From contig CAIKZH010000131.1 of the NCBI GenBank assembly GCA_903831865.1, forward strand, positions 1-47,925: a stretch of DNA of 47,925 nt. Reading direction: 5' to 3'. The notes beneath the pieces were generated by a model. The model had not been told where the DNA came from. It ran no database searches and was given only the letters and a program-made list of their open reading frames with translations. A program made the translations under genes and the position numbers. Below, in pieces: positions 6,453 to 36,582 of this stretch. The stretch comes from an uncultured Coriobacteriia bacterium. GTDB taxonomy: Bacteria; Actinomycetota; Coriobacteriia; Anaerosomatales; PALSA-660. Each line of letters starts with the position of its first letter. Within the stretch, counting starts at the first letter, position 1.

Positions 6453-6731
6453 TCACCGCACGCCGAATCCGGCCTCGCCGCGGGGCTTCTCCCACTGCAC
6501 GTCGACGGACTCCACGTACGCCTTGGCGGGGCCGACGCGCACGTAGTCGAGCGCCCGCTCGACAGCATCAGGAGGACCCTCGAAGATGGCCTCCACCCGG
6601 CCGTCGGGCGTGTTGCGCACCCACCCCGACACCCCAAGATCCACCGCCTTGTCGGCGGTCGACTGGCGGAACCAGACTCCCTGCACGCGACCGCTCACGG
6701 TCGCATGAGCTCGGACCACGGACGCGGGCAT
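6453..6731 (-). CDS. acyP: Acylphosphatase
   Basis: The 92-residue product matches the acylphosphatase family in full length (usually 90-100 residues). The first motif is GRVQGVWFR with the phosphate-binding arginine at residue 22, and the second is GWVRNTPDGRVE with the catalytic asparagine at residue 40. The enzyme hydrolyses acyl phosphates such as carbamoyl or acetyl phosphate in the cytoplasm. The start was chosen at 6731 because GGGAGGTG lies at a suitable distance upstream; longer ORF extensions overlap the divergent gene and are unlike the family. It converges on the lipoprotein gene. Confidence 0.92.
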   Translation of the reverse strand: MPASVVRAHATVSGRVQGVWFRQSTADKAVDLGVSGWVRNTPDGRVEAIFEGPPDAVERALDYVRVGPAKAYVESVDVQWEKPRGEAGFGVR

Positions 6732-6797
6732 CGCGACACCTCCCGCAGTAGAATCCTGCCTGCGCCCATCAGAGCGCAACCGATGAAGAGGAGACGC

Positions 6798-7592
6798 ATG
6801 CCAAGCCATCCCGCGATGGAGGCCAGCACGTGGCTCGCGACCATCCCCTCCCGCCGCTCCAGGCGGGCCTTCGATACGCACGCGCTCTCCCACGAGGACC
6901 TCGACGCCATCGCCACGCTCTGCAGCCGGTTCACTCCCTATGAGGACGCTCGCGTCCTGCTGCTTCCGGAGGCGCCCGAGACCGTGTTCACGGGGCTCAT
7001 CGGCTCGTACGGCAAGGTCACGGGTTCGCCTTCGGCCCTCGTCTTCATCGCTGACGCGGCATCTCCCCACGCTGAGGAGCACCTCGGCTACACAGGCGAG
7101 GCAGTCGTGCTGGCGGCCGATGCGAGAGGGATGCAGACCTGCTGGATCGGCGGCTCCTTCTCACGGTCGGCGGTGACCCGCATCGTGACCTTGCGCGAGA
7201 GCCAGGTCGTTCGCGCGGTATCCCCGCTCGGGCACGCGCTCCTTGAGCCACCGCGGGCGGAACGGGTCATGTTCGGCGCGAGCAAGCCGAAGTCGCGGCG
7301 CTCGCTGGACCAGATCGCAGCCGGACAGGAGGACTGGCCGGCGTGGGCCCAGGCCGGCGTGCGTGCCGCGCAGGTGGCTCCGTCGGCGATGAACCGGCAG
7401 CCGTGGCGGTTCCGCATGGAGGGCGACTCCGTGATCGTGGCCACCTCGGGCGTGCGGACTCCGGTCGTCTCCACGCGGCTGGACTGCGGCATCGCCATGC
7501 TGCACTTCGAGCTCGGCGCGCGCGGGGAAGGACTGGACGGCGAGTGGGAGGCGCTCGAGGGTCATGACATCGCGCGCTGGTCGCCCAGGTAG
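6798..7592 (+). CDS. Nitroreductase-family protein
   Basis: The 264-residue protein shows the nitroreductase fold signature in a divergent form: an early RRSRRAFDTHALS segment (normally binding FMN phosphate), and WAQAGVRAAQVAPSAMNRQPW, the classic APSAxNxQPW flavin-contact motif. The TCWIGGSF region also matches the family. Such proteins reduce nitro compounds, quinones or flavins with NAD(P)H, but the order of motifs is that of the TM-nitroreductase subgroup, whose substrate is unknown. The ATG at 6798 follows GAAGAGGAGA; another in-frame ATG at 6783 is less likely. It is transcribed divergently from acyP. Confidence 0.8.
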   Translation: MPSHPAMEASTWLATIPSRRSRRAFDTHALSHEDLDAIATLCSRFTPYEDARVLLLPEAPETVFTGLIGSYGKVTGSPSALVFIADAASPHAEEHLGYTGEAVVLAADARGMQTCWIGGSFSRSAVTRIVTLRESQVVRAVSPLGHALLEPPRAERVMFGASKPKSRRSLDQIAAGQEDWPAWAQAGVRAAQVAPSAMNRQPWRFRMEGDSVIVATSGVRTPVVSTRLDCGIAMLHFELGARGEGLDGEWEALEGHDIARWSPR

Positions 7593-7691: not shown

Positions 7692-7916
7692 ATGAGCGAC
7701 GATCGCCACGATGGTGAGCCGCGGATGTCGATGAGAGCGAAGGTCATCGCCGCGGCGGTCATAGTGCTGGTCCTGCTCGCGGTCGGCTACGTGCTGTTTC
7801 GACTGTCCCCACCGACGATACCTCCCGACCAGACGCCCCCCGCGGGCCACTCGGGCGCGCCGTGCAGCCGGTGCCACCATGTGGACCCGGCCGCGCCACG
7901 GATCCGGGTGCCGTGA
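7692..7916 (+). CDS. Small membrane-anchored protein with a single CxxCH heme-type motif
   Basis: A 74-residue protein: about 16 hydrophilic residues, one membrane helix (AAAVIVLVLLAVGYVLF, residues about 20-36), a proline-rich linker PTIPPDQTPPAGHSG, then CSRCHH at 58-63. The CxxCH at 58-62 is the covalent c-type heme motif, and the Pro-rich lead-in resembles magnetochrome-like single-heme domains, but only 12 residues follow the motif. The start at ATG 7692 follows GGGAGAG; GTG 7680 is an alternative. The stop overlaps the next gene by 4 bp. Heme attachment is inferred, and a zinc site or chance CxxCH remains possible. Confidence 0.65.
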   Translation: MSDDRHDGEPRMSMRAKVIAAAVIVLVLLAVGYVLFRLSPPTIPPDQTPPAGHSGAPCSRCHHVDPAAPRIRVP

Positions 7917-8650
7917 GCGGCCACGGCGTGGGAATGGCAGCCGCGGACGGGTCAGCCGAGCAGGCGGATCCCGGCAAGGACGCGCGCGGGGAACGCAGCT
8001 CGCGTGACTACACCCTCGGCGAGGAGATCGCCAACAGCATCACTCACGGCGTCGGGATCGCGGTCTCGATCGTCGCGCTCACGCTTCTCGTTGCCGACTC
8101 GGTGGCGTACGGCGACGGGTGGGCGCTCGCGAGCGGCATCGTCTTCGGCCTCTCGCTCATCCTGCTCTACACCGGCTCGACGCTCTACCACGCGATCCCA
8201 TTCCCGAGGGCCCGCCACGTCTTCAAGGTGATCGATCACTCCGCGATCTACCTGCTCATCGCAGGCACCTACACACCGTTCACACTCGTGACGCTGAGGG
8301 CGTCAGGAGGGTGGTGGATGTTCGGGATCGTCTGGGCACTCGCAGCGGCGGGCATCGCCACCGAGGCGTTCTGGACCTACCGCCCCAGGTGGGTGTCGGC
8401 CGTGGTCTACCTCGCGATGGGCTGGCTCATCATCTTCATGATCGGACCGATCGTGCACGCCATCCAACCGGCGGGGCTGTGGCTGCTCGTGGCAGGAGGC
8501 GCCTGCTACACGCTGGGGACGGCGTTCTACGTCTACAAGCGGGTCCCCTACTTCCACATGGTGTGGCACCTGTGGGTGCTCGCGGGGAGCGTCTGCCACT
8601 TCCTCGCGGTGCTCCTCTACGTCGTGCCGCTGAGTGCGAGGATCGGCTAG
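7913..8650 (+). CDS. Hemolysin III (HlyIII/YqfA, PAQR-related) membrane protein
   Basis: The 245-residue protein has seven predicted helices and the conserved metal-site residues of the HlyIII/PAQR superfamily: EEIANSITHG in the first loop, GSTLYHAI, VIDHSAIYLLIAGTYTPF and the terminal HMVWHLWVLAGSVCHF. Bacterial members are integral membrane proteins, some linked to membrane-lipid homeostasis; true hemolytic function is not established for most. GTG 7913 gives a GTGA overlap with the CxxCH gene; ATG 7934 is an alternative start. Its TAG stop shares the palindrome CTAG with the stop of the convergent gene. Confidence 0.88.
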   Translation: MSGHGVGMAAADGSAEQADPGKDARGERSSRDYTLGEEIANSITHGVGIAVSIVALTLLVADSVAYGDGWALASGIVFGLSLILLYTGSTLYHAIPFPRARHVFKVIDHSAIYLLIAGTYTPFTLVTLRASGGWWMFGIVWALAAAGIATEAFWTYRPRWVSAVVYLAMGWLIIFMIGPIVHAIQPAGLWLLVAGGACYTLGTAFYVYKRVPYFHMVWHLWVLAGSVCHFLAVLLYVVPLSARIG

Positions 8651-9390
8651 CCCGCCACCTCGGGGCGCGCCTTCGCGTCGAACGGGTTCGTCCGGACCGC
8701 GAAGGAGAACAGGTACGGGTAGTCAGCCTTGAGGTGGCGCACGTAGAGCAGCCACTCGCCCAGCAGCCTGCCGTACGCCCTCGCCAGGTCGAGCTCGAGA
8801 TGTCGGCGGTCCGGCGTCGACAGGTCCTTGAGGTCCCCGCGCGCGGAGAGTTCCTCGCTGAGATGCGAGACGGCCCACAGCATGTCGGTGAAGGACGCGT
8901 GCTCCAGGAGATTGCCGTTCTGCAGCAGCCCCAGGACGAACGTGCGCTGCTCATCCAGCGCGGTGTGCAGCCCCGCGATGTCCCCCGCGCCGAGGTCCAT
9001 CGGGTGGTCCTCGCCACTCACGGCAAGCCGGTGAGACTGGAAATCCGCCGGGGTCCACTCGGCAGTGAAGAGCATGTGCGCACGATCGTGTTCGACGTCG
9101 GTGTCGAATGCCGACAGGCGCGCCATGAGGTCGTCGCCGGCCTGCGAGAAGAAGGCCCCGACGACCATGTTCATCTTGTGCAGCAGCTCCTCGCGCTCGC
9201 GCGCCGCGATGAGCCGGTTGATGAACAGTCCGACGACCAGGACGTTGATCGGGATGAAGGCGATGTCCAGCAGCGTGTAGAAGCCGAGGCTGCGGGCGTC
9301 ACGATAGAGGGCGAAGTCCAGCAGGAAGAACAGGGCGGCGACGGCCAGAAGCAGCGTCACGAGCCACCCGATCGACAGGGTCCGTTTCAC
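8647..9390 (-). CDS. Two-TM membrane protein of unknown function, partner of the UGA-containing gene
   Basis: The 247-residue protein has two N-terminal membrane helices (about residues 8-28 and 38-58), then a basic/acidic junction INRLIAAREREELLHKMNM and a soluble, helical C-terminal domain of about 180 residues. I recognise no named family. Its ATG at 9390 overlaps the TGA of the thioredoxin-NHL gene (ATGA), so the two are translationally coupled and probably act together at the membrane. The topology resembles sensor or scaffold proteins, but no catalytic motif is visible. Confidence 0.85.
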   Translation of the reverse strand: MKRTLSIGWLVTLLLAVAALFFLLDFALYRDARSLGFYTLLDIAFIPINVLVVGLFINRLIAAREREELLHKMNMVVGAFFSQAGDDLMARLSAFDTDVEHDRAHMLFTAEWTPADFQSHRLAVSGEDHPMDLGAGDIAGLHTALDEQRTFVLGLLQNGNLLEHASFTDMLWAVSHLSEELSARGDLKDLSTPDRRHLELDLARAYGRLLGEWLLYVRHLKADYPYLFSFAVRTNPFDAKARPEVAG

Positions 9391-10886
9391 TGCGGGTCCC
9401 CCGCGGCCGTCCGTCCGTCCGTGATCACGAGGTCGCTCACACTCCCTGAGTCCGGGTCCACGATCACGATCCGATGTGCGTCGGTGTCAGCCACGAACAG
9501 CCGGTGCCCGTCGGACGTCACTCCCGCGGGGTGGCAGAATGCTGTCCCCGATCCCGCGGCCCCCGGTAGCGCCCGGCACGTCGCGCTGTCCACGTCGAGC
9601 GTCTTGATCTTGTCGTTGTAGGTGTCGGCGACCATTATGCGCGTGTCGTGGAAGCAGATGGCCTCGGCGTGCTGCAGGCGCACCGCCTCGCCCGCGCCGT
9701 CCACGTCGCCGAAGTCAAAGAGGCCGGTGCCCACCAGAGTGCTCACCCATCCGGGGTCGCCCATCGCCAGGGTGCGGACCGACGAGGACTCCGCGTCGGC
9801 GAAGGCGACAGCGCCCTGGTTCCCGGCGAGCCCCATCGGCTGCGCCAGCAGCGCCTCGCGAGCGGGCCCGTCCTCGATCGCCTCGCCTCCCGTGCCCGCG
9901 TAGGGAGCGATGCGCTGCGCGGCAAGGTCCAGCAGCCACAGCGGGTGTGAGCCGGCCATGGCGACCAGGAGGCCTTCGTCAACGAGGGTCACGTCCCACG
10001 GGGAACGCAGCGCGACGGCGGTCGCGGGCCCGGGGCCGGGCCGGCTCTCGGCAATGAGGCCGGTCCCTGCCAGGGTCGTCACCGCGCCGGACCCCAGATC
10101 GACGGCCCGGACCGCGTGGTTCGATCGGTCCGCCACGTAGAGGGTCGTGCCGTCCGTTGCCAGCCCCTGAGGCGAGTGGAACGCGGCGCAGTCCGCTGCC
10201 CCGTCGCTGAGTCCGGCGAGCCCCGACCCGAAGACACGTCGTATCGCGGCTGCATCATGCGCGACGAGCTCCATCTCGAGGATGCGGTGGCGCCCCGTGT
10301 CGGCAACGAAGAGCTTCTCGCCCCAGGCGAGCACCCGGCCGGGGAACCGCAGCGGCCCCTCCGGCTCGGCCAGCACGTGCGGGTCCCGACCGAAGTCGCG
10401 CGGCTCCTCGTCGAGCGTGCCCTCCGTCCGGAACCTCTCGATCTCCCGCGCGATCGTGCCGGCGAGCGACTCGGTGTCGAACTCGCCCGCCTGTCTCAGC
10501 ACGATGCGCCCATCCGCCCCGACGAGCACCACCGTGGGCCAGGCGTTCACGTCGAACTCGCGCCAGATCCGGAACTGGCGGTCGTTGACGACGGGATGCC
10601 GCACGTCCAGACGCGCACACGCCGAACGGATCCGCTCGGTGGCACGCTCCGCGGGGTACTTGCCTGCGTGCACGCCGATGACGACGAGCTGGCCTTCGAA
10701 CCTCCGGTGAAGCTCCGCGACACGCGGGAGCACGTGCATGCAGTTGATTCAACCGGCGGTCCAGAAGTCGAGCAGCACCATCTTGCCGCGAAGATCGGCC
10801 ATCCGGATCGGCGCGGACGTCCCGACCCACTCCAGGCCCTCGGTGAACTCCGGAGCGTGTACGGTGAACACGCCACCCAGGGTCAT
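9387..10886 (-). CDS. Thioredoxin-NHL repeat protein with in-frame UGA: probable selenoprotein (U-I-N-C)
   Basis: Read through the TGA at 10749-10751, this is a 499-residue protein. The ATG at 10886 follows GAGGAGG at 7 bases. The thioredoxin-like domain (residues about 10-170) opens [11 protein letters not shown], then UGA as residue 46, then INCMHVLP. Related thioredoxin-NHL (NHLRC2-like) proteins have [13 protein letters not shown], so UGA replaces exactly the first cysteine of the CxxC redox site; C49 is kept. Residues about 175-495 form an NHL beta-propeller with repeats such as [19 protein letters not shown] and [18 protein letters not shown]. The internal ATG at 10739 has no Shine-Dalgarno and would cut off half the active site. 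A SECIS-like hairpin follows the UGA. Stop or frameshift mutation is the alternative. Confidence 0.85.
10712..10731 (-). promoter_or_regulatory. SECIS-like hairpin downstream of the in-frame UGA
   Basis: In the mRNA sense the segment folds as GCUCC, bulged C, GCG, loop UGU, CGC, GGAGC: eight base pairs with one bulged base and a three-base loop. The loop sits 27-29 bases after the UGA at 10749-10751 and has G as its second base. Bacterial SECIS elements lie within the coding region with the apical loop about 16-37 bases after UGA and a G at the start of the loop, so position and shape fit. Because the stem is GC-rich like its surroundings, the hairpin alone is not proof. Confidence 0.65.
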
Positions 10887-10976
10887 GCCCCGTCCTCCTC
10901 GTGTCGCGCCTTCGGGTCCACGGTGTCGCTCTGGGGAATGGGTACCCATGTTCGAAGTCTTGGGAGGGGGACTGAG

Positions 10977-11684
10977 GTGGACCGGACGGCTCGCACGGTC
11001 GCGTTCTCGGCGACGGAACCGGTGTGCCAGGGCACCGCGTCGTTCTTCTTCGAGCGCCCGGAGGCGTATCGGTTCGCCGCCGGCCAGTATTTCACCCTCA
11101 CTCTCCTGACCGGGGACGGCGAGCAGACGAAGTCCTTCTCGCACTGCGACTCCCCGGGCGACGAGCGCTCGCAGCTCACTACGCGCCTGACGGGGAGCGC
11201 GTTCAAGAACGCGCTCGAGGCGCTGATGCCGGGTGACCCCGTAGCGGTCGCCGGGCCGTTCGGATCGCTCACGGTGCCGGAGGGGATGACAAAGGCGGCG
11301 TTCCTTGTGGGAGGCGTCGGCATCACCCCTGCTCGCAGCATCCTGCGCGACAGCGTGCAGCGTGGGACCGGTCTCACCGCGCTCGTGTTCGACGGGAACC
11401 TTGACGAGGGATGCATCCCGTTCGATGAGGAGTTCAGGCGATACGAGGTCGAGGTGCCGGGCGTTCGCTTCGTGCACGTGCTGGAGCGCCCGGGTCAAGC
11501 GTGGACCGGTGAGCGCGGATTCATCACCGCCGACACCGTGCTGCGCCACTGCGACCCCCTGGACGGCTGGCACTGGTTCGTGGCCGGACCGCCTGCCATG
11601 GCGAAGGCGATGGAGGTGGTCATCGCGGGCCTCGGGCTGCCTGAGGACCGGGTCTCCAGAGAGCCGTTCTCGGGGTATCAGTGA
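10977..11684 (+). CDS. Ferredoxin-NADP reductase-family flavoprotein (FAD/NAD(P)H oxidoreductase)
   Basis: The 235-residue protein has both FNR-type domains: an FAD-binding barrel (residues about 1-100, with [12 protein letters not shown]) and a nucleotide-binding domain opening with [13 protein letters not shown] and closing with [12 protein letters not shown], a variant of the CGPPxM motif. No 2Fe-2S domain is fused, so an external acceptor is needed. GTG 10977 is preceded by GGGAGGGGG at 6 bases; the much longer upstream ORF is antisense to the selenoprotein gene and is not coding. It is divergent from that gene over a 90-bp gap, which invites, but does not prove, a shared redox role. Confidence 0.88.
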
Positions 11685-11787: not shown

Positions 11788-12189
11788 ATGGCACTCATGG
11801 CGAGAACGTGTAACTACGACGCGATGGGAGCCGAGCGCCTCGGAGCGAGGCTGTTCGTGTTCCTGGGCGGCCTGTTCTGGGTGATCGCCGCGCTCTCGGC
11901 CCCGCTCTTCTACACAGGGCAGGGAGTGGGCACGGCTGTGCTCGACGCGCTGCTCCCGTTCGGGTTGGCCGCGGTGGCGCTGCTGGTCGGCTGGTTCTAC
12001 GAGAACGTCGCTGCGGTCCTCCTCTTCCTGGGAGCCGCCGCAACGGTCGTCTGGGGCATCGTCGCGGGGTGGGAGCCGGGCGTGTGGGCTGTCATGGCCC
12101 TCGTGCTCATCGCCCCGCAGATCATCGCGGGTCTGCTGTTCATCATGGCTGCGCAGGCACAGAGAGTCTGTGATGGCGCGAAGGCCTGA
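11788..12189 (+). CDS. Small four-TM membrane protein, unknown function
   Basis: A 133-residue protein with four predicted membrane helices separated by short turns (starting at about residues 22, 50, 75 and 100), a short N-terminal [11 protein letters not shown] segment and a soluble C-terminal tail. The start ATG at 11788 is preceded by GGGAAGGA. A -10-like TATGAA at 11723-11728 could belong to its promoter, with no convincing -35. No family recognised. It is followed by a strong bidirectional hairpin. Confidence 0.75.
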
Positions 12190-12210
12190 AGGCGCCGCCA
12201 GGGAGCGTGA

Positions 12211-12253
12211 CGTGAAGATGGCCCCGGCCGAGTCGGCCGGGGCCATCTTCACG
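12211..12253. terminator. Perfect 20-bp inverted repeat between convergent genes
   Basis: The arms 12211-12230 and 12234-12253 are exact reverse complements around a three-base loop (agt). Convergent genes end on either side (12189 and 12274), so this is most likely a bidirectional terminator. No T-tract follows on either strand, so a role as a transcript-stabilising hairpin is also possible. Confidence 0.75.
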
Positions 12254-12273
12254 AGCGCCCACAGATGCGCCGC

Positions 12274-12708
12274 CTAGTACTCGCTGAGCGGCAGGTGGTC
12301 CTCGATGGTGATCTCGAAGTTCAGCCGCTCCCCCGCGAGGGGATGGTTGAAGTCCAGAGTCACGTCCTTGCCGTCGATCGCCACGATCTTGCCCAGCAGC
12401 TGGTCGCCGTCGGGCGTCTCGAGGGGCACGATCCCGCCGATCATCGGCTCCTCGCCGAAGGCCTCGCGGTCGTACGTGTGGCTGAGCCCCTCCTGACACG
12501 GGCCGTACGCGTCCTCGGGCTCGATGGCCGCCGCGACCGTCTCGCCCTTCTCGTGGCCGATGACGGCGCGTTCGAAGCCCGGGATGAGTTCGCCGTTGCC
12601 CACGACGAACTCCAGAGGCTCGCTCTCCTGGTTGGTGTCGAACAGGGTCCCGTCGTCCAGGGTCCCCTTGTAGTGGACACGGACCGTGTCTCCACTGTTG
12701 ATCGCCAT
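12274..12708 (-). CDS. FKBP-type peptidyl-prolyl isomerase, SlyD-like
   Basis: The 144-residue protein is a typical SlyD-like FKBP. The FKBP core begins VRVHYKGTLDDGTLFDTN and contains GELIPGFERAVIGHEKGE. The insert-in-flap chaperone domain occupies about residues 65-120 (EDAYG through LDFNHPLAG), and the core resumes with NHPLAGERLNFEITI. The enzyme isomerises X-Pro bonds and acts as a holdase in the cytoplasm. It lacks the histidine-rich nickel tail found in E. coli SlyD. It is monocistronic between a hairpin and the divergent CorC-like gene. Confidence 0.94.
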   Translation of the reverse strand: MAINSGDTVRVHYKGTLDDGTLFDTNQESEPLEFVVGNGELIPGFERAVIGHEKGETVAAAIEPEDAYGPCQEGLSHTYDREAFGEEPMIGGIVPLETPDGDQLLGKIVAIDGKDVTLDFNHPLAGERLNFEITIEDHLPLSEY

Positions 12709-12876
12709 ATGACGTGCCTTCCGTCGGTTGTCCGGGGGGTGGTGCAGCGCTGACCATACATCACGGCGCCGGGGACGCGCTACGTGGCGGCGGGTCGGGG
12801 CGCCCGGCGGGAGATGCGTCGCTGCTCGGGCCGGTGTGCTGTGGTGCGGGGAGGCCGCTGTTGGTAACGTAGGAGC

Positions 12877-14232
12877 ATGGGACGCTATCTCGGCGAGATC
12901 ATCACGATCGCCATACTCATCGGGTTGAACGGCTACTTCGCCGCGGCGGAGATCGCGCTGGTCTCCGCTCGGCGCACGGCGTTGCAGCAGTCGGCCGAGA
13001 GGGGCTCCGCCGGGGCACGCGCCGCTCTGCGGCTACTCGACGACCCCAACCGGCTGCTCTCCACCATCTCCGTGGCCATCACGCTGGTGGGTTTCAGCGC
13101 GGCCTCGCTCGCAGCTGTCACCTTCGACGGGCCGCTCACCGCCGCTCTCACGGCCGCCCGGATCCCGGGGGTCTCCTCGCTGGCCGCGGGCTTCGCCGTC
13201 TTCCTCGTCACGATCGCGGTCACGTACTTCACGCTCGTGTTCGGCGAGCTGACGCCAAAGCGGCTCGGCCTCAAGCGCTCGGAACGCGTCGCCACGGCCG
13301 TGGCGCGGCCGGTGACCTGGCTGTCGGCCGCGCTGACCCCGGTCGTGTGGCTGCTCGGACGGTCGACCGACGTCACCTCACGCGCCATCGGTCTGCGAAC
13401 GGGCCCGGAGGAGGGCCATGCGGTCTCGGAAGAGGAGATCAAGATCCTCGTCACCGAGCAGGGCACCCTCCTCGACGAGGAGAAGCGGATGATCCGCGAA
13501 GTCTTCGAGCTGGGAGACACGGTGGCGCGCGAGATCATGGTGCCTCGCGTCGACATGGAGATGCTCCCCGACACCCTCACCGTGGGGGAGGCGCTCCCGC
13601 GTTTCCGGACGACCGGGTTCTCGCGGATCCCGGTGTTCCACGACGCGCCGGACGACGTGACGGGAGTGGCGCTGCTGAAGGACCTCCTCGGTCCCATCGC
13701 CGCAGGGAGGACGGCCGATCCGCTCGGTCCTCTCGCTCGCCCGGCGCTCTTCGTCCCGGAGACCAAACCGATCCTGGATCTCCTGCAGGAGATGCGCGCG
13801 GCACACAACCACATGGCGATCGTCGTCGACGAGCACGGCGGGACGGCGGGAGTCGTGACCATCGAGGACATACTCGAGGAGGTCATCGGAGACATCTCCG
13901 ACGAGTTCGACACGGAGCGCCGCCATCTGAGCAACATCGGAGGCAACGTCTGGCTGGCCGACGGCAGGATGCCGGTCGAGGACGCGAACGAGAAGCTCGG
14001 CCTCGGCATCCCGGAGTCCGAGGAGTACGAGACGCTCGCAGGATGGGTGCTGAGTGAGCTCGGGCATATCCCCGTGGCGGGCGAGCTGGTCTGGTCAGAC
14101 GGCGCGGAGGTCCGCGTGCAGACGGTGAGGAGTCAGCGGATCGCACGGCTTCGGATCACGCTCCCGGCGGGTCACGCGACCCCGGGTGCAGTCACACCTG
14201 AAGAGGGACGAGGGGGACCGGATGATGAGTGA
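12877..14232 (+). CDS. CNNM/CorC (HlyC-CorC) family transporter or regulator, DUF21-CBS
   Basis: The 451-residue protein has the standard layout: DUF21/CNNM membrane domain with three or four helices (residues about 5-195, with NGYFAAAEIALVSARR and VFGELTPKRLGL), a pair of CBS domains (about 210-340, with VAREIMVPRVDMEMLP and NHMAIVVDEHGG) and a C-terminal CorC_HlyC domain of about 80 residues. Members are linked to magnesium or cobalt export or resistance. Start ATG at 12877 follows TAGGAGC. The end overlaps the next gene by 11 bp, which ties it to the LiaF-like/PspC envelope genes. Confidence 0.92.
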   Translation: MGRYLGEIITIAILIGLNGYFAAAEIALVSARRTALQQSAERGSAGARAALRLLDDPNRLLSTISVAITLVGFSAASLAAVTFDGPLTAALTAARIPGVSSLAAGFAVFLVTIAVTYFTLVFGELTPKRLGLKRSERVATAVARPVTWLSAALTPVVWLLGRSTDVTSRAIGLRTGPEEGHAVSEEEIKILVTEQGTLLDEEKRMIREVFELGDTVAREIMVPRVDMEMLPDTLTVGEALPRFRTTGFSRIPVFHDAPDDVTGVALLKDLLGPIAAGRTADPLGPLARPALFVPETKPILDLLQEMRAAHNHMAIVVDEHGGTAGVVTIEDILEEVIGDISDEFDTERRHLSNIGGNVWLADGRMPVEDANEKLGLGIPESEEYETLAGWVLSELGHIPVAGELVWSDGAEVRVQTVRSQRIARLRITLPAGHATPGAVTPEEGRGGPDDE

Positions 14233-15430
14233 CGAGGGAGAAGGAAAGGCGTCGGGCGGGGCCGAGACACAGCCGACACCACCGGCGACGCCGGTGCAGC
14301 CGCCGTCCGACGACGCGACCTGGAGCGGCACGCATGGCGCGCGGGGGCGGCGCGGGGGGACCTTCATCGGCATCGCCCTGATCGTGATCGGCGTGCTCGT
14401 GCTGCTGGGGCAGGTCACGTCGCTCAGCGGCGTTCTGCGGCTGTGGCCCCTTCTCGTCGTCGCGGCGGGCATCGGCTCGATCGTGCGGCCGCATCGTTGG
14501 GGTCGCGGGACCGTGGTCAACATCGTGGGCGGCCTCACCACCGTGGTCGTAGGGCTCATCCTGCTCGCCAACACATGGGGTTACCTCGGCTGGAACGTCT
14601 GGTTGAGTGTCTTCTCGCTCTGGCCGCTGCTCGTCATCGCCTGGGGCCTCGAACTGCTCGGGCGAGGGATCGGGCAGCGTTGGCTGGGCGTCGTCGGCGC
14701 CCTGCTCGTCTTGGGCGGGCTGCTCTACGGGGCGTTGATCCTCGGACCGAGGCACGCACCGGTCGCGTGGTTCCCGTTCACGGGCGTCGTCTCCACCAGC
14801 CCGTTCGCCTCCGATGTGGCCCACGACCCGTCGCTCGCCCACGCGGACGCGTCGATCAAGGTGGGAGCGACGCAGCTGGTCGTGGGCGCCGGCGAGAAGC
14901 TCGCCTCCATAGACGGCCTGGCGCCGGCGGGGGACGCGCCTGTCCTGGCGTCGACGTCCGCCAGCGGCTCAGCCAGCGTGACAGTGACCGAGCCCGGTGG
15001 GTCCCGCACGTTCGACGTCGGAAGCCAGACACTCGACGTACGGCTGGATCGCGCCGCGACCTGGCGCTCAGTCGCGCTGGATGTCGGCGCCGTCGACGGT
15101 CGCGTCGACCTGAGCGGCCTGAATGTGCAGGCGGTCTCGGTGAACTCGGGGGCATCACACCTGGCACTCACCGTAGGCACCCGGTCACCCCGGGTCGCGA
15201 TCGCGATACAGGGTGGGGCGGCGGACATCACGCTGCGTATCCCCGCCGGCGCCGCAGTGAACCTCGACGCCAAGAGCGGGCTCTCCGACGTGACCGTCCC
15301 CCCGTCGTACCGTCGGGTCGCCGGCGCTCCCATCTTGGGGGAGTCGCGCTGGATCGCGCAGGGAACGGGCCCGCGGATCGACATCTCGGTGCAATCGGGC
15401 GTGTCGTCCGTCACCCTGCAGACCTACTAG
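14222..15430 (+). CDS. LiaF-like membrane protein with toast-rack C-terminal domain
   Basis: The 402-residue protein starts with about 45 flexible, Pro/Thr-rich residues. Next come four closely packed membrane helices (residues about 50-190, including IGIALIVIGVLVLLGQ and TTVVVGLILLAN), in the DUF5668 pattern. Residues about 220-402 form a beta-rich domain (DVGAVDGRVDLSGLNVQAV, NLDAKSGLSDVTVPP) like that of LiaF/VraT and PspC-associated proteins. Such proteins negatively regulate cell-envelope-stress two-component systems in Firmicutes. ATG 14222 or 14225 may be the start; GAGGGGG precedes both. PspC follows by 13 bp. Confidence 0.8.
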   Translation: MMSDEGEGKASGGAETQPTPPATPVQPPSDDATWSGTHGARGRRGGTFIGIALIVIGVLVLLGQVTSLSGVLRLWPLLVVAAGIGSIVRPHRWGRGTVVNIVGGLTTVVVGLILLANTWGYLGWNVWLSVFSLWPLLVIAWGLELLGRGIGQRWLGVVGALLVLGGLLYGALILGPRHAPVAWFPFTGVVSTSPFASDVAHDPSLAHADASIKVGATQLVVGAGEKLASIDGLAPAGDAPVLASTSASGSASVTVTEPGGSRTFDVGSQTLDVRLDRAATWRSVALDVGAVDGRVDLSGLNVQAVSVNSGASHLALTVGTRSPRVAIAIQGGAADITLRIPAGAAVNLDAKSGLSDVTVPPSYRRVAGAPILGESRWIAQGTGPRIDISVQSGVSSVTLQTY

Positions 15431-15443
15431 GAGGACTGTGAAG

Positions 15444-15947
15444 ATGACCCCATCGAAGGACTCGCGTTCGTCGGCAGCCACGGCGGCCGGCATCGCGCTC
15501 GTCGTGGTCGGAGTGTGGTGGCTCGCGTGGGCGCTGGTGCCTGAATGGCTGCGCACGATCGGTACGCAGGTGCTCGGAGCGCTGGTGCTTATCGCGCTGG
15601 GGGTCCTGGTCGTGGTGGCCGCCCGTCGCGGGACGTTCAACGCGTCCTACACGGGGACGCGGCTCCACCGCTCACGGAGCGACCGCTGGATAGGCGGCGT
15701 CCTCGGCGGGCTAGGGGCATACCTGGGCATCGAGCCGCTGATCCTGCGCATCCTCGTACTCGTGCTCACGCTGCTTGGACAGGGCGTGCTGGTGCTCGCC
15801 TACATCGTGCTGTGGGTACTGGTACCGGAGGAGCCTCTCTTCGCGGCCACGTTGGTCCCACCTGTGGTCACGGACTCCGCACCGGTCGAAGCAGAGCAGT
15901 CCGAGCCCGTTCAGTCACCGCCGTCGGAGGATGCCCACGATGAGTGA
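15444..15947 (+). CDS. PspC-domain membrane protein
   Basis: The 167-residue protein has two N-terminal membrane helices (about 8-55), then the PspC core SRSDRWIGGVLGGLGAYLG with a third and fourth helix (LILRILVLVLTLLGQG) ending in VLWVLVPEEP, and an acidic tail. PspC domains sense membrane stress; fused to a LiaI-like helix pair this form is frequent in Actinomycetota. The AGGAGG at 15429-15434 favours ATG 15444 rather than GTG 15438. The stop overlaps the amidohydrolase start by 8 bp. Confidence 0.87.
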   Translation: MTPSKDSRSSAATAAGIALVVVGVWWLAWALVPEWLRTIGTQVLGALVLIALGVLVVVAARRGTFNASYTGTRLHRSRSDRWIGGVLGGLGAYLGIEPLILRILVLVLTLLGQGVLVLAYIVLWVLVPEEPLFAATLVPPVVTDSAPVEAEQSEPVQSPPSEDAHDE

Positions 15948-16890
15948 GACCGGCGACACCGCTCAGGCCATGGATCCGGCGCCGCCGACGGCGCCGGGCG
16001 ATGTGATCGACGCGCACACGCACCTGTTCACCGTCGGGCTCCTCGAGGAGATGGTCTCGAAGATGCCCAACGTGCCCGAGCGCTTCAAGGACGGCCTTCG
16101 CAAACGGCGCTGGGGCAAGAGGGCGGACACGCTGCCGGACATGTCCCCTCTGGAGACAGCGAAGTGGTACGTCGGACGGCTGCAGGCGGCTGGCGTGGCC
16201 AAGGCGCTCGTGATGTCCATCGCGCCGGACAACCAGTGGACGCGGGACTTCCTGGTCGCCGCCAACGGACACGTCCACGCGCTGTGCGGGATCGACCCGC
16301 GGGACCCGGGCGCTCCGGCTCTGCTCGAGCGCGAGGTGGCGGCCGGGTTCAGGGGGGTCAAGCTGCTTCCCTCGAACCGCTGCTACCGGCTCTCCGATCC
16401 TGCGTGCCGCCCGTTGTTCGAGAAGGTCGCCGAGCTCGGAGTCAGCGTCACGATCCACTACGGTGTCACCGTCGATCCGACGGGGGACATGCGCTACGCC
16501 GATCCGACCGACCTCTCGCCGGTCGCCCGGGACTTCCCCGACACCCCTTTCGTGATCGCCCACTTCGGTGCCGGCTATCTGCAGGAGGTGCTGCGCGTCG
16601 CCTACCAGTGCAAGAACGTCTGCGTGGACACCTCGGGCACGAACAACTGGATGGACTACTACGTGCCGAAGATGCCGCTGTCCGAGGTGTTCGAGCGCGC
16701 GCTGACCGCGCTGGGGCCCGAACGGGTCCTCTTCGGCACCGATGCCGGTACGACCGCCGCGTACCGCACGTGGATCAAGTTCCAGCAGATGAGGACGCTC
16801 GAGGAACTCGGTCTGTCGGCGGGCGACCTCGACCTCGTGCGGCGTGGGAACGCCGTGCGCATCTTCCGTCTGGATGACCCGCTGACGTGA
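15940..16890 (+). CDS. Amidohydrolase family 2 (metal-dependent hydrolase, TIM barrel)
   Basis: The 316-residue protein is an amidohydrolase-2/ACMSD-like enzyme. DVIDAHTHLF supplies the HxH metal ligands, FRGVKLLPSN and VTIHYGVT give the next histidine strand, FVIAHFGAGY another, and VLFGTDAG the catalytic aspartate. Family members hydrolyse or decarboxylate cyclic amides and aromatic acids. The substrate cannot be inferred. ATG 15940 follows CGGAGG at 9 bases; ATG 15931 is closer than is usual. It overlaps the methyltransferase by 4 bp and the upstream pspC by 8 bp. Confidence 0.87.
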   Translation: MSETGDTAQAMDPAPPTAPGDVIDAHTHLFTVGLLEEMVSKMPNVPERFKDGLRKRRWGKRADTLPDMSPLETAKWYVGRLQAAGVAKALVMSIAPDNQWTRDFLVAANGHVHALCGIDPRDPGAPALLEREVAAGFRGVKLLPSNRCYRLSDPACRPLFEKVAELGVSVTIHYGVTVDPTGDMRYADPTDLSPVARDFPDTPFVIAHFGAGYLQEVLRVAYQCKNVCVDTSGTNNWMDYYVPKMPLSEVFERALTALGPERVLFGTDAGTTAAYRTWIKFQQMRTLEELGLSAGDLDLVRRGNAVRIFRLDDPLT

Positions 16891-17699
16891 CGCGACCGGA
16901 GCCAGCCGAGCGCGTCGAGCCCGCCGCCGACTACGACCGTTTCGTCGACTGGCGCGCGCGACTCGCCCGGGAGGCGCCGTTCTACAAGCGCGTCTTCGGG
17001 GAAGCCGGGGTCCGCAGCGTGGTCGACGCGGGCTGCGGCACCGGCATGCCCGCGATCACGTGGGCACAGTGGGGACTGAAGGTCACCGGAGTCGACCCGG
17101 ACCTGTCGATGCTCGCGCAGGCACGAGTGAACGCCGCCGCGGCTGCATCAGCGATCGACGATGCCGGCGGAAGTGTCAGCTTTGTGGAGGGCGCGTTCGG
17201 AGGCCTTGCGGAGCTCGGACTCGCGGGAGCGGACGCCGTGACCTGCACGGGCAACGCGCTGCCGCACGTGCGCGGGCTGGACGGCCTACGTGCGGCCATC
17301 GAGGACTTCGCGGCGGTCCTGAGGCCGGGCGGGCTCCTCGTGCTCCACCTCCTCGACCACGACCGGCTCCTCGGCCGTCACCTGCGCTCCATACCTCCGG
17401 TGGTCCGTGATGCCGAGGACGGGACGTGGGTCTTCCTTCGGGTCATGGACTACACGGACGAGGGCATCCTGTTCGACTTCATCACGCTGCACCGGCCGCC
17501 GGCGGAAGCCAGCGGCGACGGCTCCTGGGAGGTCTCGTCCCGCCGCTCGGTCCACACGGCGATCCCCTCGGGCGCGCTGACGAGCGAGCTGGCGCGCGCG
17601 GGGTTCGACGGCGTCGGACTCTTCGGTGACCACACGGGCAAGGCCTTCGATCCTGAGCATGACGAGTCGCTGATCGTGGTGGCGCGCCAGCGCTCCTAG
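16887..17699 (+). CDS. Class I SAM-dependent methyltransferase
   Basis: The 270-residue protein has the Rossmann methyltransferase signature: motif I VVDAGCGTGMPAITWAQWG, acidic VTGVDPDLSMLAQAR, ADAVTCTGNALPHV and the post-motif AVLRPGGLLVLHLLDHD. It starts with GTG overlapping the amidohydrolase stop (GTGA), so the two probably form a metabolic pair. The substrate is not identifiable. Its stop shares CTAG with the convergent maf gene. Confidence 0.87.
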   Translation: MTRPEPAERVEPAADYDRFVDWRARLAREAPFYKRVFGEAGVRSVVDAGCGTGMPAITWAQWGLKVTGVDPDLSMLAQARVNAAAAASAIDDAGGSVSFVEGAFGGLAELGLAGADAVTCTGNALPHVRGLDGLRAAIEDFAAVLRPGGLLVLHLLDHDRLLGRHLRSIPPVVRDAEDGTWVFLRVMDYTDEGILFDFITLHRPPAEASGDGSWEVSSRRSVHTAIPSGALTSELARAGFDGVGLFGDHTGKAFDPEHDESLIVVARQRS

Positions 17700-18355
17700 C
17701 GGTTGCGGCAGAGCCTGCGCCCGAGCGGGCACTCCCTGCCGAGGGCGGCTTCGCACTCCGCGATCGGAGCCGAGATGCCCTGGACGCCGGCCCTCGCAAG
17801 ACGCTCGAAGAGGTGGCAGAGCGGAAGGCCCGCGACGTTCTGGTAGCACTCGCCCTGCTCGACTGTCGCGAGGTGTCGCTCGATGTTGTAGGCGCCGGCG
17901 CACCCCAGCGCCTCGTCCCCCGCGAGCCAGTCGCTGATGGCCCCCGTGTCGAGTTCCCGCATCGCGACCGGCGTGGTCACGGCGAATGTGGTCGGCTCGC
18001 TCTCGCCCGCAAGCAGGAACGCCGAGCCGGTCACCACGTCGTGCACGCGGCCGGAGAGCGACTCGAGCATGGTGCGCGCCTCCTCCACGTCGGCGGGCTT
18101 GCCGAGCACTCGGCGGTCCATCACCACGATCGTGTCGAACGCGAGGATGAGTGCGGTGTCGGGCCGCGCGCCTCGCGCCGCCCTCGCCTTGTCCGCGGCC
18201 AGGGACCGGGCGAGGACCGGCGGCACGCCGCGCAGGGGGGAGTCCAGGTCCTCGTCGGTGTTCGTGCTGAGGCACTCGTAGTCCGCAGCGAGCCACGCCA
18301 GAAGTCGACGCCGGCGGGGTGAGGCGGAAGCGAGAAGGATGGAGGGAGCGTCCAT
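17696..18355 (-). CDS. maf: Maf-like nucleoside triphosphate pyrophosphatase
   Basis: The 219-residue protein has all Maf features: LLASASPRRRRLLAWL at the N-terminus, ADKARAA, DTIVVMDRRVLGKPA with its aspartate and lysine, SGRVHDVVTG, and the late NIERHLATVEQGECYQNVAGLP segment. Maf enzymes hydrolyse dTTP/UTP or modified nucleotides to monophosphates and affect cell division. A tail of about 25 residues containing ECEAALGRECPLGRR carries two extra cysteines, which is somewhat unusual. The gene is divergent from the HEAT/HD-GYP pair. Confidence 0.93.
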   Translation of the reverse strand: MDAPSILLASASPRRRRLLAWLAADYECLSTNTDEDLDSPLRGVPPVLARSLAADKARAARGARPDTALILAFDTIVVMDRRVLGKPADVEEARTMLESLSGRVHDVVTGSAFLLAGESEPTTFAVTTPVAMRELDTGAISDWLAGDEALGCAGAYNIERHLATVEQGECYQNVAGLPLCHLFERLARAGVQGISAPIAECEAALGRECPLGRRLCRNR

Positions 18356-18524
18356 GGCGCGGATGATAGCATCGCCGCCCGGCCACGCCCGGCCCCGACC
18401 GGTGCGACCAGCGGGGTGCCGTCGCCGTGGCGGCCCCCCTTCGCTCGGTACATAATCGTGTGCGTGTGACTCCGGGTCGCGGTCCGTGGGACCGCCGGGC
18501 CCGGGCGCAGCCGGAAGGGAGCGC

Positions 18525-26490: not shown

Positions 26491-27777
26491 ATGGGCACAG
26501 GCGGGGCACGGGTGGTCTTCGATCGCTGGGAGGGCCGCTACTCGTCGGCGATGAGTGCCGTACGGTCGTCGGCCGTGCGGGACCTGTTCGCGGCGGCTGA
26601 CCGACCGGATGTCATCTCGCTCTCCGGCGGCATGCCGGACGTGCGGCGCGTCCCGCGCGAGGCCGTCCAGAGAGCGGTGCGCGACGCGATGCGCCACGAC
26701 GGCGCCGCGGCCCTTCAGTACGGCTCCAGCGAGGGGAGTGTCGCGCTGCGCGGCACCGTCGCCGACCTGATGGCGGAGTCCGGAGCGCGGCTCGACGAGG
26801 ACGACATCGTCCTCACCGCCGGGGCGCAGCAGGCGCTCGATCTCCTGGCCCGCGTGTTCCTCGATCCCGGTGACGTCATCATCACCGAGGGGCCCACCTA
26901 CGTGGGGGCGCTGCAGGCCTTCTCCGCATACCGCCCGCGTGTGGAATGCATACCGCTCGACGAGCACGGCATGAGGACGGAAGTGCTGGAGGAGACGCTG
27001 CGGCGGCTCGGCCCCCGGGGCGCGAAGTTCATCTACACGATCCCGAACTTCCAGAACCCCGCCGGCGTGACGCTCTCCGCCTCGAGGCGGCGCCGGCTCT
27101 TGGAACTCGCCCACGAGTTCGACATCCCGGTCATCGAGGACGACCCCTACGGGAGGCTGCGCTACGAAGGGGGTCACATCCTGCCGCTCCGGGCGCTCGA
27201 CCCGGACGTGATCTACCTCGGCACGTTCAGCAAGGTCTTCGCGCCCGGGCTGCGTGTGGGGTGGCTGGCGGCTCCCCGCCCGATCCGGTCCAAGGTGCTG
27301 CTGGCGAAGCAGGCGGCCGACCTCTGCGGCTCGTCGTTCGCGCACGCCGTGATCGAACGCTACATGACCGGTACCTCGTGGCGCAGGGTGCTCGTGGACC
27401 TCCAGTCGGCGTACCGCGAGCGCAGGGATGCGATGTTCGCAGCGCTCGCGGAGCACTTCCCCGGCGACGTCGCGTGGACCCGGCCGGAGGGCGGCTTCTT
27501 CGTCTGGGTCACCCTTCCCGCGCACATGGACACGAAGCCTCTGCTTGCGGAGGCAGTCGAGCACGGCGTGACCTTCGTCCCCGGCAGCGACTTCTTCCCG
27601 GACGGGCGAGGCAGCAACTGCCTGCGCATCGCGTTCTGCTACGAGTCTCCGGAGAAGATCGCTGAAGGGATCACGCGCCTCGCGGAAGTGCTGGAGGACA
27701 AGCTCGGACTGTACAGGTCGTTCGTCGCGGCAGGCGTGATGCCGGCGTCCGCCGGCTCCGGAGGAGGACTCGCATGA
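26491..27777 (+). CDS. PLP-dependent aminotransferase, LysN/2-aminoadipate type (fold type I)
   Basis: The 428-residue protein belongs to the MocR/LysN-like branch of class I aminotransferases but has no DNA-binding domain. Key segments are ISLSGGMPDVRRVPREA, AGAQQALDLLARVFLDPGD, the NPAGVTLS motif after YTIPNFQ, the PLP aspartate in VIEDDPYG and the PLP lysine K248 in GTFSKVFAPGLRVGW. Family members transaminate 2-aminoadipate, aromatic or branched-chain amino acids; the substrate here is not decided. ATG 26491 follows AGGGCGG at 8 bases; GTG 26482 is less likely. It is the first gene behind the T-box and overlaps ddl as ATGA. Confidence 0.9.
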   Translation: MGTGGARVVFDRWEGRYSSAMSAVRSSAVRDLFAAADRPDVISLSGGMPDVRRVPREAVQRAVRDAMRHDGAAALQYGSSEGSVALRGTVADLMAESGARLDEDDIVLTAGAQQALDLLARVFLDPGDVIITEGPTYVGALQAFSAYRPRVECIPLDEHGMRTEVLEETLRRLGPRGAKFIYTIPNFQNPAGVTLSASRRRRLLELAHEFDIPVIEDDPYGRLRYEGGHILPLRALDPDVIYLGTFSKVFAPGLRVGWLAAPRPIRSKVLLAKQAADLCGSSFAHAVIERYMTGTSWRRVLVDLQSAYRERRDAMFAALAEHFPGDVAWTRPEGGFFVWVTLPAHMDTKPLLAEAVEHGVTFVPGSDFFPDGRGSNCLRIAFCYESPEKIAEGITRLAEVLEDKLGLYRSFVAAGVMPASAGSGGGLA

Positions 27778-34288: not shown

Positions 34289-36100
34289 TCAGGCTCCCGC
34301 GACCCGGGCGAACAACATCGACAGGGCGAGGTAGAGCGTCACGGCGGCCAGCGAGGTCAGGGTCGTCACGACCGCGGAGGAGGCGCGCCATCCCTCGCCT
34401 CCGCGCTTGCGCACGAGGGCGGGATAGATGGCGGTGGCCGCGGTCACGATCGCGGTCGTGAGCGCCAGCGCGCCGGCGAGCGCGAGAGAGAGGGCGAGCG
34501 GCTCCGCCAGCGCTTCGAGTACCGCGAGGGCGATGAGTCCGGAGAGGACGCCGAGTGCGAGTCCGACGAGGGTGTTGCCCAACAGTCGGCGCCAGAACCC
34601 CGGCATGGTGGTCTCGTTCTCTATGAGGATACCCAGCTCGTGGTCCGCCACGTCCTCGCCCACGCGCACCACCAGCGGCACGAACAGAGCGATGACGGCG
34701 AAGATGGCTGCGTGCTCGGAGAAGATGCGCACGACCAGGGCGGCGGCGATCCCGAGGACCGCCCACACCGCGAGCCAGTTCATGGACTGCGCGAGCCACG
34801 CGGCGACGCCGGTGGCCTCCAGGGCCCGGCGGGGCGCGGAGCCGGTCGCGAGCCGAAGATCTTCCGCCGACTCCTGCTCCATGACCTCGAGCGCGTCGTC
34901 GACCGTGACGATGCCGAGGATGCGCCCCGCCTCGTCGATGACGGGGATGGCGAGCAGGTCGTACTTGCTCATCATCTCTGCGACCTGCTCCTGGTCGTCG
35001 TCGGGACCGACGCTGAACACGTCGCGCTCGGTGATGTCCGTGACCGTGGTCTCGGGTGGCGACACCACCAGGTCGCGCAGCGAGACGACTCCCTCGAGGA
35101 TGCGGCGCGCTCCCACCACGTAGACGTAGTAGATGTTCTCCGCCTCGGCCGCACGCGACCTCAGCTGGTCGATGACCTCCTGCGCGGTCATGTCCTCCGA
35201 GACCGTCGTGATCTCGGGCGTCATGATGCCGCCCGCGGTCTTCTCGCGGTAGCCCAGCAGCTTGCGCACCTGCCGTGCCTCGCGCACTCCCATCAGCCGC
35301 AGCAGGGCCTCGGCCTTGTCGTAGGGCAGGTCGCCGATGATGTCGGCGGCGTCGTCCGGGTCCATGATCTCGAGGATGTCGGAGGCGCGCTCGTCGGTCA
35401 GGTCGTCGACGACCTGTGCCTGTATCTCGTCCTCCATCTCGGAGATCGTGTCCGCGACCTGGTCGTCGTCGAGGTGCTGGAACACCAGGGCGCGCTGGGA
35501 AGGCGAGAGCTGCTCGAGGACGTCGGCGATGTCGGCCGGGTGCAGCTCGTGCAGACGCCTGTGCGAGACGGAGAGCTTGACGTTGCCGAGGTCCCGGTCG
35601 AGGAGCTCCATGTAGTTCCAGGCGATCAGGTTCTCCTTCAGCGGGCGCCCGAAGACGCTTCCGATGGCGTTCGCGGCGCCCTCCAGGGGCGGCCAGATGC
35701 CGCGCAGGATGCCCCGCGTGCCCACCTCGGCGCCGAGCAGGCGCAGCTGGTTGCGAGACTCGGAGAGCTTGAGGTCGTTGACGCGCACGACCTTCATGCC
35801 CTGTGTGTCGACGATCTGCTTGTTGAGCAGGTCGCGCGCGAGCAGCACCTCGTCCGGCTGCTGGTATGAGAACCGCAGGTCGAGGGCCTTCGTGTTGAGG
35901 TGGGCGCCCGCCTCGTCGTACGCGTCCACGAACTTGCGCCACGACAGCATGAACGGCGTCTTGTCGGGACCGACGAGTGCGAGGGAGGTGACCCTGGGGA
36001 AGACCTCGCCCGTCGCGATCGCGAGGTCCTTGATGGTGCCTATCGGCTGGCCGGCGGAGTCCGTCACCGGTCGGCCCAGCATCCGTGTGAGGTAGAACAT
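34289..36100 (-). CDS. mgtE: MgtE-type magnesium transporter with N-terminal PRC-barrel-like region
   Basis: The 603-residue protein begins with a PRC-barrel-like region (MLGRPVTDSAGQPIGTIKDL and following, residues about 1-75), then a linker, then the MgtE N-domain of helical repeats (HELHPADIADVLEQLSPSQ, MDPDDAADIIGDLP). A CBS pair follows (GGIMTPEITTVSEDM and VTVDDALEVMEQE), then about five C-terminal membrane helices. MgtE is a Mg2+ channel gated by its cytoplasmic N and CBS domains. ATG 36100 follows GGGAG. The membrane part is weakly conserved relative to canonical MgtE, so ion selectivity is inferred from family and from the M-box upstream. Confidence 0.85.
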   Translation of the reverse strand: MFYLTRMLGRPVTDSAGQPIGTIKDLAIATGEVFPRVTSLALVGPDKTPFMLSWRKFVDAYDEAGAHLNTKALDLRFSYQQPDEVLLARDLLNKQIVDTQGMKVVRVNDLKLSESRNQLRLLGAEVGTRGILRGIWPPLEGAANAIGSVFGRPLKENLIAWNYMELLDRDLGNVKLSVSHRRLHELHPADIADVLEQLSPSQRALVFQHLDDDQVADTISEMEDEIQAQVVDDLTDERASDILEIMDPDDAADIIGDLPYDKAEALLRLMGVREARQVRKLLGYREKTAGGIMTPEITTVSEDMTAQEVIDQLRSRAAEAENIYYVYVVGARRILEGVVSLRDLVVSPPETTVTDITERDVFSVGPDDDQEQVAEMMSKYDLLAIPVIDEAGRILGIVTVDDALEVMEQESAEDLRLATGSAPRRALEATGVAAWLAQSMNWLAVWAVLGIAAALVVRIFSEHAAIFAVIALFVPLVVRVGEDVADHELGILIENETTMPGFWRRLLGNTLVGLALGVLSGLIALAVLEALAEPLALSLALAGALALTTAIVTAATAIYPALVRKRGGEGWRASSAVVTTLTSLAAVTLYLALSMLFARVAGA

Positions 36101-36270
36101 GTCTGCTCCCATGCCGTGGGCGCGCCTGGCTTCCTGCGGGCGCGTTCCTTGATAGAGGGGATCTGTCGGAGGCGGTCCCGACTGATCCCGCACGGCGGGA
36201 GCCGGGACCTAGCGACTACTTGAGGGAGTCACAAAGTCCTCTTCTGCTCGGTTGCATGACCGACACGACG

Positions 36271-36300: not shown

Positions 36301-36372
36301 CGTGGGATGCGGGCCGACACAATCACCGACAAGGCGCCGGGTCTCATGAAGACGCCCGCGCCATCCGCTCAC

Positions 36373-36544: not shown

Positions 36545-36582
36545 CATATTCGTGGTGTCAACGCCCCCGGAGGGGCCATGCC

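Follow-up and report, generated by a model that had tools for sequence, protein, structure and literature searches.

The question that this locus raises is whether a UGA codon within a long minus-strand gene of an uncultured Coriobacteriia bacterium ends translation or encodes selenocysteine (Sec). The stretch of DNA analysed (47,925 nucleotides of contig CAIKZH010000131.1, assembly GCA_903831865.1) is hereafter called the window, and an earlier note, made from the sequence alone, had proposed that the gene at 9387-10886 specifies a thioredoxin-NHL selenoprotein. Based on the results presented below, it is highly likely that UGA 46 is decoded as Sec. For the whole reading, namely that the gene encodes a Sec form of the NHLRC2/SOQ1 family, that its UGA is decoded through SelB and that Sec46 and Cys49 form a centre of thiol-type exchange, we estimate a probability of roughly 0.8. 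Computation supports this reading through the UGA column, the fold, the Sec machinery, the constant position of a hairpin, and selection on either side of the codon; Sec insertion in the cell, the redox direction, the substrate and the electron donor are inferred.

The in-frame UGA and its column among relatives

When TGA is read as Sec, the gene yields 499 residues, and its single internal TGA is residue 46. As the earlier note had stated, the frame is open on either side of this TGA in one phase. Translation with table 11, on the other hand, splits the gene into an open reading frame (ORF) of 450 amino acids (9387-10739) and a second ORF that ends at 10749 and is open to 11798. The start at ATG 10886 is our choice, because a Shine-Dalgarno-like motif precedes it and most homologues start aligning at residues 1-14; upstream of the internal ATG 10739, no such motif was seen when the sequence was read by eye, and the earlier note is thus borne out on both starts. 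No signal peptide was seen by eye in the 499-residue protein, which is therefore probably located in the cytoplasm. The features of the locus are collected below.

Features of the locus in the window
Feature	Position	Strand	Basis
Predicted thioredoxin-NHL selenoprotein gene	9387..10886	-	Translation with TGA as Sec; full-length NHLRC2/SOQ1 homology
Sec46 UGA codon (predicted)	10749..10751	-	Column shared with 43 TGA, 43 Cys and 1 Ser among 87 non-duplicate loci
Cys49 codon, UxxC partner of Sec46	10740..10742	-	Invariant in 36 of 36 aligned proteins
SECIS-like hairpin, 8 bp, one bulged C, UGU loop	10712..10731	-	Meets published consensus; position kept in relatives
Shine-Dalgarno-like AGGAGG, 7 nt 5' of ATG 10886	10894..10899	-	Sequence reading
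Thioredoxin-like domain, about residues 9-150	10437..10862	-	Pfam Thioredoxin_8, AhpC-TSA, Redoxin; model
NHL beta-propeller, about residues 175-490	9417..10364	-	Pfam NHL; structural matches 6g7w, 7djk
Divergent NAD/FAD oxidoreductase-like gene, 235 aa	10977..11684	+	Pfam NAD_binding_1
Downstream gene, 4-nt overlap with the stop codon	8647..9390	-	Translation

Relatives were collected from the window's order (family present in 13 of 69 genomes at E ≤ 1e-20), from a scan of genome contigs (25 family loci), from a sample of the phylum that included the window's own genome (28 of 396 genomes at E ≤ 1e-40), and from a Thermomicrobiales order, the one around genome G077 (33 of 61 genomes). In total, 97 loci matched (L024-L120), of which 7 fall short of column 46 and 90 cover it; these carry TGA (45), TGC (37), TGT (7) or AGT (1). 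After removal of three duplicates (L066, for example, duplicates L045), 87 loci remain, with 43 TGA (the window counted), 43 Cys and 1 Ser, so that the UGA alternates with Cys codons as the earlier note had anticipated. Residue 46 falls in one column for all 86 loci of the codon alignment, which was made without L034. The single Ser (AGT) belongs to a gammaproteobacterial locus, L046, which reads ISC in place of INC.

The Sec form is found in 12 of the 69 genomes of the window's order, that is, in 12 of the 13 that bear the family, the thirteenth (G050) having TGT. In the Thermomicrobiales sample, it is found in 29 of 61 genomes (28 from the order search and G086, whose column lies in L056 of the contig scan). 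These are 29 of the 33 family-bearing genomes; the remaining four comprise two Cys forms and two fragments without the column. Two further TGA genomes are an acidobacterium (L053) and G127, a member of the window's phylum (L072). Because the same column recurs in 43 non-duplicate loci, the internal TGA is beyond chance. A sequencing or assembly error at 10749-10751, which the fragmented assembly of 192 contigs might otherwise suggest, is in effect already refuted, since the identical codon stands in the 42 other non-duplicate TGA loci, at 39-66% protein identity. General decay around the UGA, which the earlier note had named as a possible objection, is not seen either: frames are broken 3' of the site in only 3 of the 43 TGA loci (L034, just 5' of the hairpin, L056 and L120), through assembly errors or decay, and the rest end at comparably placed stop codons, except for L037 and L119, which run off their contigs.

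In the 22 closest TGA pairs, the pooled nonsynonymous and synonymous values (pN/pS) are 0.073/0.463 on the 5' side of the UGA and 0.088/0.426 on its 3' side, and both sides therefore behave as translated protein in those pairs. This has implications for the alternative that the UGA is a true stop in a split or decaying gene, with the 450-residue part perhaps restarted at ATG 10739. Such a view agrees with the two ORFs of table 11 and with the fact that UGA terminates elsewhere, for example at this gene's own end (TGA 9387-9389). However, relatives can be aligned over the residues 5' of the UGA, and the 22 pairs show purifying selection on them; the thioredoxin fold covers both parts, no Shine-Dalgarno was seen at 10739, and all 43 genomes that share TGA at this column have part of the Sec machinery. 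A true stop is accordingly very improbable.

The history of the column was followed on a quickly built, unrooted tree of 85 proteins, from which column 46 was masked (L034 and L037 were too short and were excluded). Seven Sec/Cys changes are placed on this tree, at least four of them forced by starred branches; each may be a gain or a loss of Sec. The TGA forms extend at most 456 residues past column 46, whereas 34 of the 41 complete Cys forms extend at least 507, the other 7 being short (392-465). This difference in length follows the tree and may reflect descent rather than function.

Sec machinery and the hairpin downstream of the UGA

The window's genome (G000; 2.16 Mb) carries a complete set of Sec genes, in line with the earlier note, which had named selA, selB, selC and selD as the genes to look for. 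All are clustered within 6.2 kb of contig C126, in the order selD-selA-selB-tRNA-Sec(UCA): SelD at 12155-13105 (L021; 373 bits), SelA at 13688-15046 (600 bits), SelB at 15089-16969 (378 bits), and tRNA-Sec at 18272-18364 (70 bits; ARAGORN tRNA-SeC, anticodon TCA). The proteins were scored with the NCBIfam models TIGR00474, TIGR00475 and TIGR00476. The selD gene has one in-frame TGA of its own, and SelD is therefore likely to be a selenoprotein itself.

Among the relatives, at least one of tRNA-Sec, SelA and SelB was found over cut-off in all 43 TGA genomes. Of 11 TGA genomes tested in the window's order, 10 have SelA over cut-off, and the twelfth TGA genome, G051, has SelA as well. In the Thermomicrobiales, tRNA-Sec was found in 21 of the 28 TGA genomes tested; it was also found in G077, the acidobacterium G083 and G127, all with TGA. 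Genome G528, which has TGC at column 46, is the sole column-covered genome of the Thermomicrobiales sample in which neither tRNA-Sec (E ≤ 1e-11) nor SelA (over cut-off) turned up; G529, the second Cys genome of that order, has both. With a 60-bit line of our own, tRNA-Sec is present in 8 of the 17 non-TGA genomes tested. In these counts, every Sec form came with detected machinery, and Cys forms came both with and without it.

In the window, the selenocysteine insertion sequence (SECIS)-like hairpin spans 20 nt, bases 18-37 downstream of the UGA, with a folding energy of -10.2 kcal/mol. Its UGU loop occupies bases 27-29, exactly as the earlier note had described, and the spacing is 26 nt. The published bacterial SECIS model has a loop of 3-9 nt with a G in its first two bases, a stem of 4-16 bp, a loop position 16-37 nt past the UGA and a minimum free energy of at most -7.5 (PMC13188914). 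In our own scan for this consensus, which was run without the 16-bp ceiling, the window hairpin fits the model.

It is the position of the hairpin in relatives that carries weight. The loop starts 23-26 nt past the UGA in 39 of the 43 TGA loci and in 3 of the 43 Cys loci (Fisher p 4.7e-16, a value that ignores relatedness), and loop position thus separates the two groups. The mean folding energy of bases 10-48 is -14.7 kcal/mol for TGA loci versus -8.9 kcal/mol for Cys loci, with mean z values against synonymous recoding of -1.21 and -0.02, respectively (Mann-Whitney p 1.7e-6 between groups). In a gapless count made without L034 and L053, whose hairpins are shifted, pairing across six stem columns reaches 82% of cells in the TGA set (39 distinct rows) and 34% in the Cys set, and registers slid along the alignment pair at most 67%. 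The most frequent sequence of the six columns that separate the stem arms is CAGTTG (22 of 41 TGA loci), followed by CGTGTA and GCGTTG (6 each), CGTGTC (4) and three others (1 each).

These results bear on another possibility, readthrough of the UGA with Cys or Trp instead of Sec. A Cys misreading would be functional, since 43 of the 44 non-TGA codons at the column are Cys. On the other hand, every one of the 43 TGA genomes has Sec machinery, the fixed-place hairpin is seldom found in Cys loci, and G528 has TGC; all of this speaks for Sec, and readthrough with another amino acid is very unlikely.

Several observations nevertheless weigh against decoding as Sec. G010, a TGA genome of the window's order, has SelB over cut-off without SelA, and seven Thermomicrobiales TGA genomes lack tRNA-Sec at E ≤ 1e-11, although SelA is present in all seven. 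The 22 pairs used for the selection estimate all come from the Thermomicrobiales search. The SECIS consensus admits 41 of 43 TGA loci, but it also admits 23 of the 43 Cys loci, as well as 105 of 172 synonymous recodings of TGA loci and 72 of 172 of Cys loci; it is therefore weak alone and separates poorly in GC-rich DNA. The window hairpin is ordinary compared with its own recodings (z 0.02) and counts as evidence only because relatives hold a hairpin at the same place. Ranks within the best 5% of recodings were reached by only 14 of the 43 TGA loci (Cys loci, 2 of 43). The 82% pairing is only narrowly above that of column shuffles (mean 75%, maximum 80% of 500), a control that covered the percentage paired only. 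Base-pair covariation is weak: two-sided stem changes in the TGA set (2 pairs, 18 cells) are no commoner than in the controls (slid registers, 1-4 pairs and 5-12 cells; Cys set, 5 pairs and 21 cells).

Fold, proposed reaction and gene neighbourhood

The identity of the protein, a thioredoxin-NHL protein according to the earlier note, is confirmed by Pfam and by full-length homology to NHLRC2 and SOQ1. Thioredoxin_8, AhpC-TSA, Redoxin (31.7 versus 26.6 bits) and NHL are all over the Pfam cut-off, and the thioredoxin domain is followed by the NHL propeller, as in NHLRC2/SOQ1. The closest sequences of solved structure are SOQ1 and NHLRC2, and then, for the thioredoxin part, DipZ and ResA. An AlphaFold2 model, built with Cys for Sec from an alignment of 36 of the 87 sequences, has a mean predicted local distance difference test score of 95.4 and a predicted template modelling (TM) score of 0.93. 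Its top Foldseek match is NHLRC2 6gc1; in VIA-align, SOQ1 7djk matches with a Z of 49.0 and 1.8 Å over 476 residues, and the rows beyond the first six are mostly single NHL domains. In the model, the thioredoxin fold is built from residues on either side of the UGA, and the first long thioredoxin helix has Sec46 at its start. In the NHLRC2/SOQ1 motif CCINC, the counterpart of Sec46 is the second Cys, which is Cys90 in the human protein. The motif reads GUINC here versus CC(I/V)NC in the family, and in the 43 TGA loci Sec is preceded by Cys (26 loci) or Gly (17 loci); we count GUINC as a variant of CC(I/V)NC.

A mechanism may be outlined as follows. SelB and Sec-tRNA(UCA) would decode UGA 46 as Sec, guided by the hairpin at bases 18-37, and TGA 9387 would act as an ordinary terminator. 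In the protein, Sec46 would be the attacking selenol and Cys49 the resolving thiol of a UxxC centre. The pair is predicted to face the cleft between the thioredoxin domain and the propeller, and the propeller therefore probably positions a protein or ligand for reduction. The resulting Sec46-Cys49 selenenylsulfide, which the earlier note had proposed and which fits the predicted fold and the invariant Cys49, would then be reset by a reductase. We thus infer a selenol/thiol exchange in the propeller-facing cleft.

It is possible that the selenoprotein instead uses Sec46 in a peroxidase-type or other centre, and not in thiol-disulfide exchange. The AhpC-TSA and Redoxin cut-offs are passed, the function of NHLRC2 was called unknown, and the plastid lipocalin change seen without SOQ1 is not reversed by dithiothreitol (DTT) (PMC6107167). 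The DTT-insensitive change weighs against simple thiol-disulfide exchange, and, together with covariation counts that do not exceed those of the controls, it holds down our confidence in the whole reading. A further point against the exchange mechanism is that the crystal of NHLRC2 has all motif cysteines reduced (PMC6107167). However, the UxxC spacing with an invariant Cys49 and the sequence similarity to ResA and DipZ are at odds with a peroxidase-type centre, which we consider unlikely, and the Sec46-Cys49 exchange centre is preferred.

The gene that diverges from the selenoprotein gene, starting 90 nt from it, encodes a protein resembling oxidoreductases that use nicotinamide adenine dinucleotide (NAD) or flavin adenine dinucleotide (FAD). 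NAD_binding_1 is over the cut-off in the longer ORF 10116-11684 and FAD_binding_6 is below it; the NCBIfam reductase matches are all below cut-off. Of the 15 loci of the window's order, 8 (L024-L027, L030, L031, L034 and L037) have a relative that adjoins the family gene divergently, among them the Cys locus L031, and tblastn found such relatives only in loci of that order. Among ten loci viewed by eye, no shared neighbour was seen except for the reductase in L030; a lack of conserved neighbours was likewise reported for 7 bacterial genomes (PMC6107167). The reductase-like protein is a possible electron donor to the Sec protein, as a candidate only. A stronger version, a selenium-dependent redox pathway in which this gene supplies a dedicated reductase that feeds electrons to Sec46-Cys49, the propeller cleft holds one specific partner and the Cys pair of NHLRC2/SOQ1 performs the same catalysis with sulfur, seems unlikely to us.

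Downstream, the overlapping gene encodes a protein with hydrophobic stretches at its start; it has no Pfam or NCBIfam match, and tblastn found no relative in the other loci L024-L120. Near the locus lie a TM1586-type nitroreductase gene (6705-7592, plus strand) and a haemolysin-III-related membrane protein gene (7862-8650, plus strand). Elsewhere in the window, an M-box magnesium riboswitch (36372-36545, minus strand; 122 bits) lies upstream of an MgtE-type magnesium transporter gene (34289-36193, minus strand). ARAGORN also reported tRNA-Ala (26510-26607, 98 nt) and tRNA-Glu (39549-39640, 92 nt) on the plus strand; both are absent from the Rfam scan and are probably false.

Comparison with known systems

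Among described selenoproteins, the Sec-thioredoxin, the Prx-like thiol:disulfide oxidoreductase, the 'Redoxin family protein' and WAxxUGC_long likewise have Sec as the attacking residue of a thioredoxin-fold motif, and none of them carries an NHL propeller in its catalogue listing (PMC13188914). Membership of WAxxUGC_long (NF041054) was rejected, with 27.9 bits against a curated cut-off of 300, and in NCBIfam release 20 no model was over the cut-off for the window protein, L031, L091 or L039. No NHL, NHLRC2 or SOQ1 type is named in Table 1 of the 2026 catalogue, which covers 119 families and subfamilies of prokaryotic selenoproteins (PMC13188914). In the open-access selenoprotein literature searched, no NHL-fused selenoprotein is named in the titles or abstract openings of the matches listed, and the word NHL is absent from the main texts searched. 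The view of the earlier note that this is a little-described type therefore stands for the literature and catalogue searched. The catalogue entry 'Redoxin family protein, PF08534, UxxC', compared here by description only, could be the same family, since the window protein passes Pfam Redoxin and a plasmid relative of almost full length is annotated 'redoxin domain-containing protein'. Its representatives in the 2022 and 2026 catalogues, HEU0032618.1 and MBA3499694.1, are known here by accession only (PMC13188914); if they have an NHL propeller, the family is already listed under a vague name. Plasmid records gave 1030 matches, two of them over at least 80% of the query (41% and 34% identity). 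The 10 matching loci of viral contigs all match from residue 158 onward only and were not used.

The bacterial thioredoxin-NHL homologues with Cys (Planctomycetota, Omnitrophota, Myxococcota, the window's phylum and others) are 34-47% identical over the matched stretch; they differ by TGC or TGT at column 46 and are mostly longer. Arabidopsis SOQ1, in its lumenal domains (7djj-7djm), shares the thioredoxin and NHL parts (7djj, E 6.5e-161). Its wild-type motif has Cys, although the motif cysteines appear as Ser in the alignment with 7djk, and the plant protein adds HAD and membrane parts (PMC6107167). It is the plant orthologue of NHLRC2 and regulates non-photochemical quenching (PMC6107167). 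Human NHLRC2 (6gc1, 6g7w) matches over its full thioredoxin and NHL length (E 1.2e-155 with a family profile; TM 0.90), and its CCINC, with Cys and not Sec, aligns with GUINC of the Sec form. By hand reading, its FINCA residue Asp148 appears to correspond to Asp102 of the Sec protein, which is invariant in all 36 aligned proteins. NHLRC2 has an extra C-terminal beta-stranded domain (PMC6107167), for which the Sec forms are too short, judged by length alone; since 7 of the 41 complete Cys forms are also short, this domain is taken as a feature of a subgroup of the family.

NHLRC2 is essential in mammals and linked to FINCA disease, and its motif lies in the cleft next to the propeller, into which Cys89 and Cys90 protrude (PMC6107167). 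The window adds to this family a very probable Sec form that annotation bound to stop codons would split in two, with selenium on what is probably the reactive residue. Sec and Cys have replaced each other naturally at a single position, which takes no fewer than four changes on the tree. This exchange argues for redox chemistry in the family and for human Cys90, the second Cys of CCINC, as its reactive residue. As Sec forms can be labelled and trapped, they offer a practical route to the reaction and the partner of NHLRC2, SOQ1 and their relatives.

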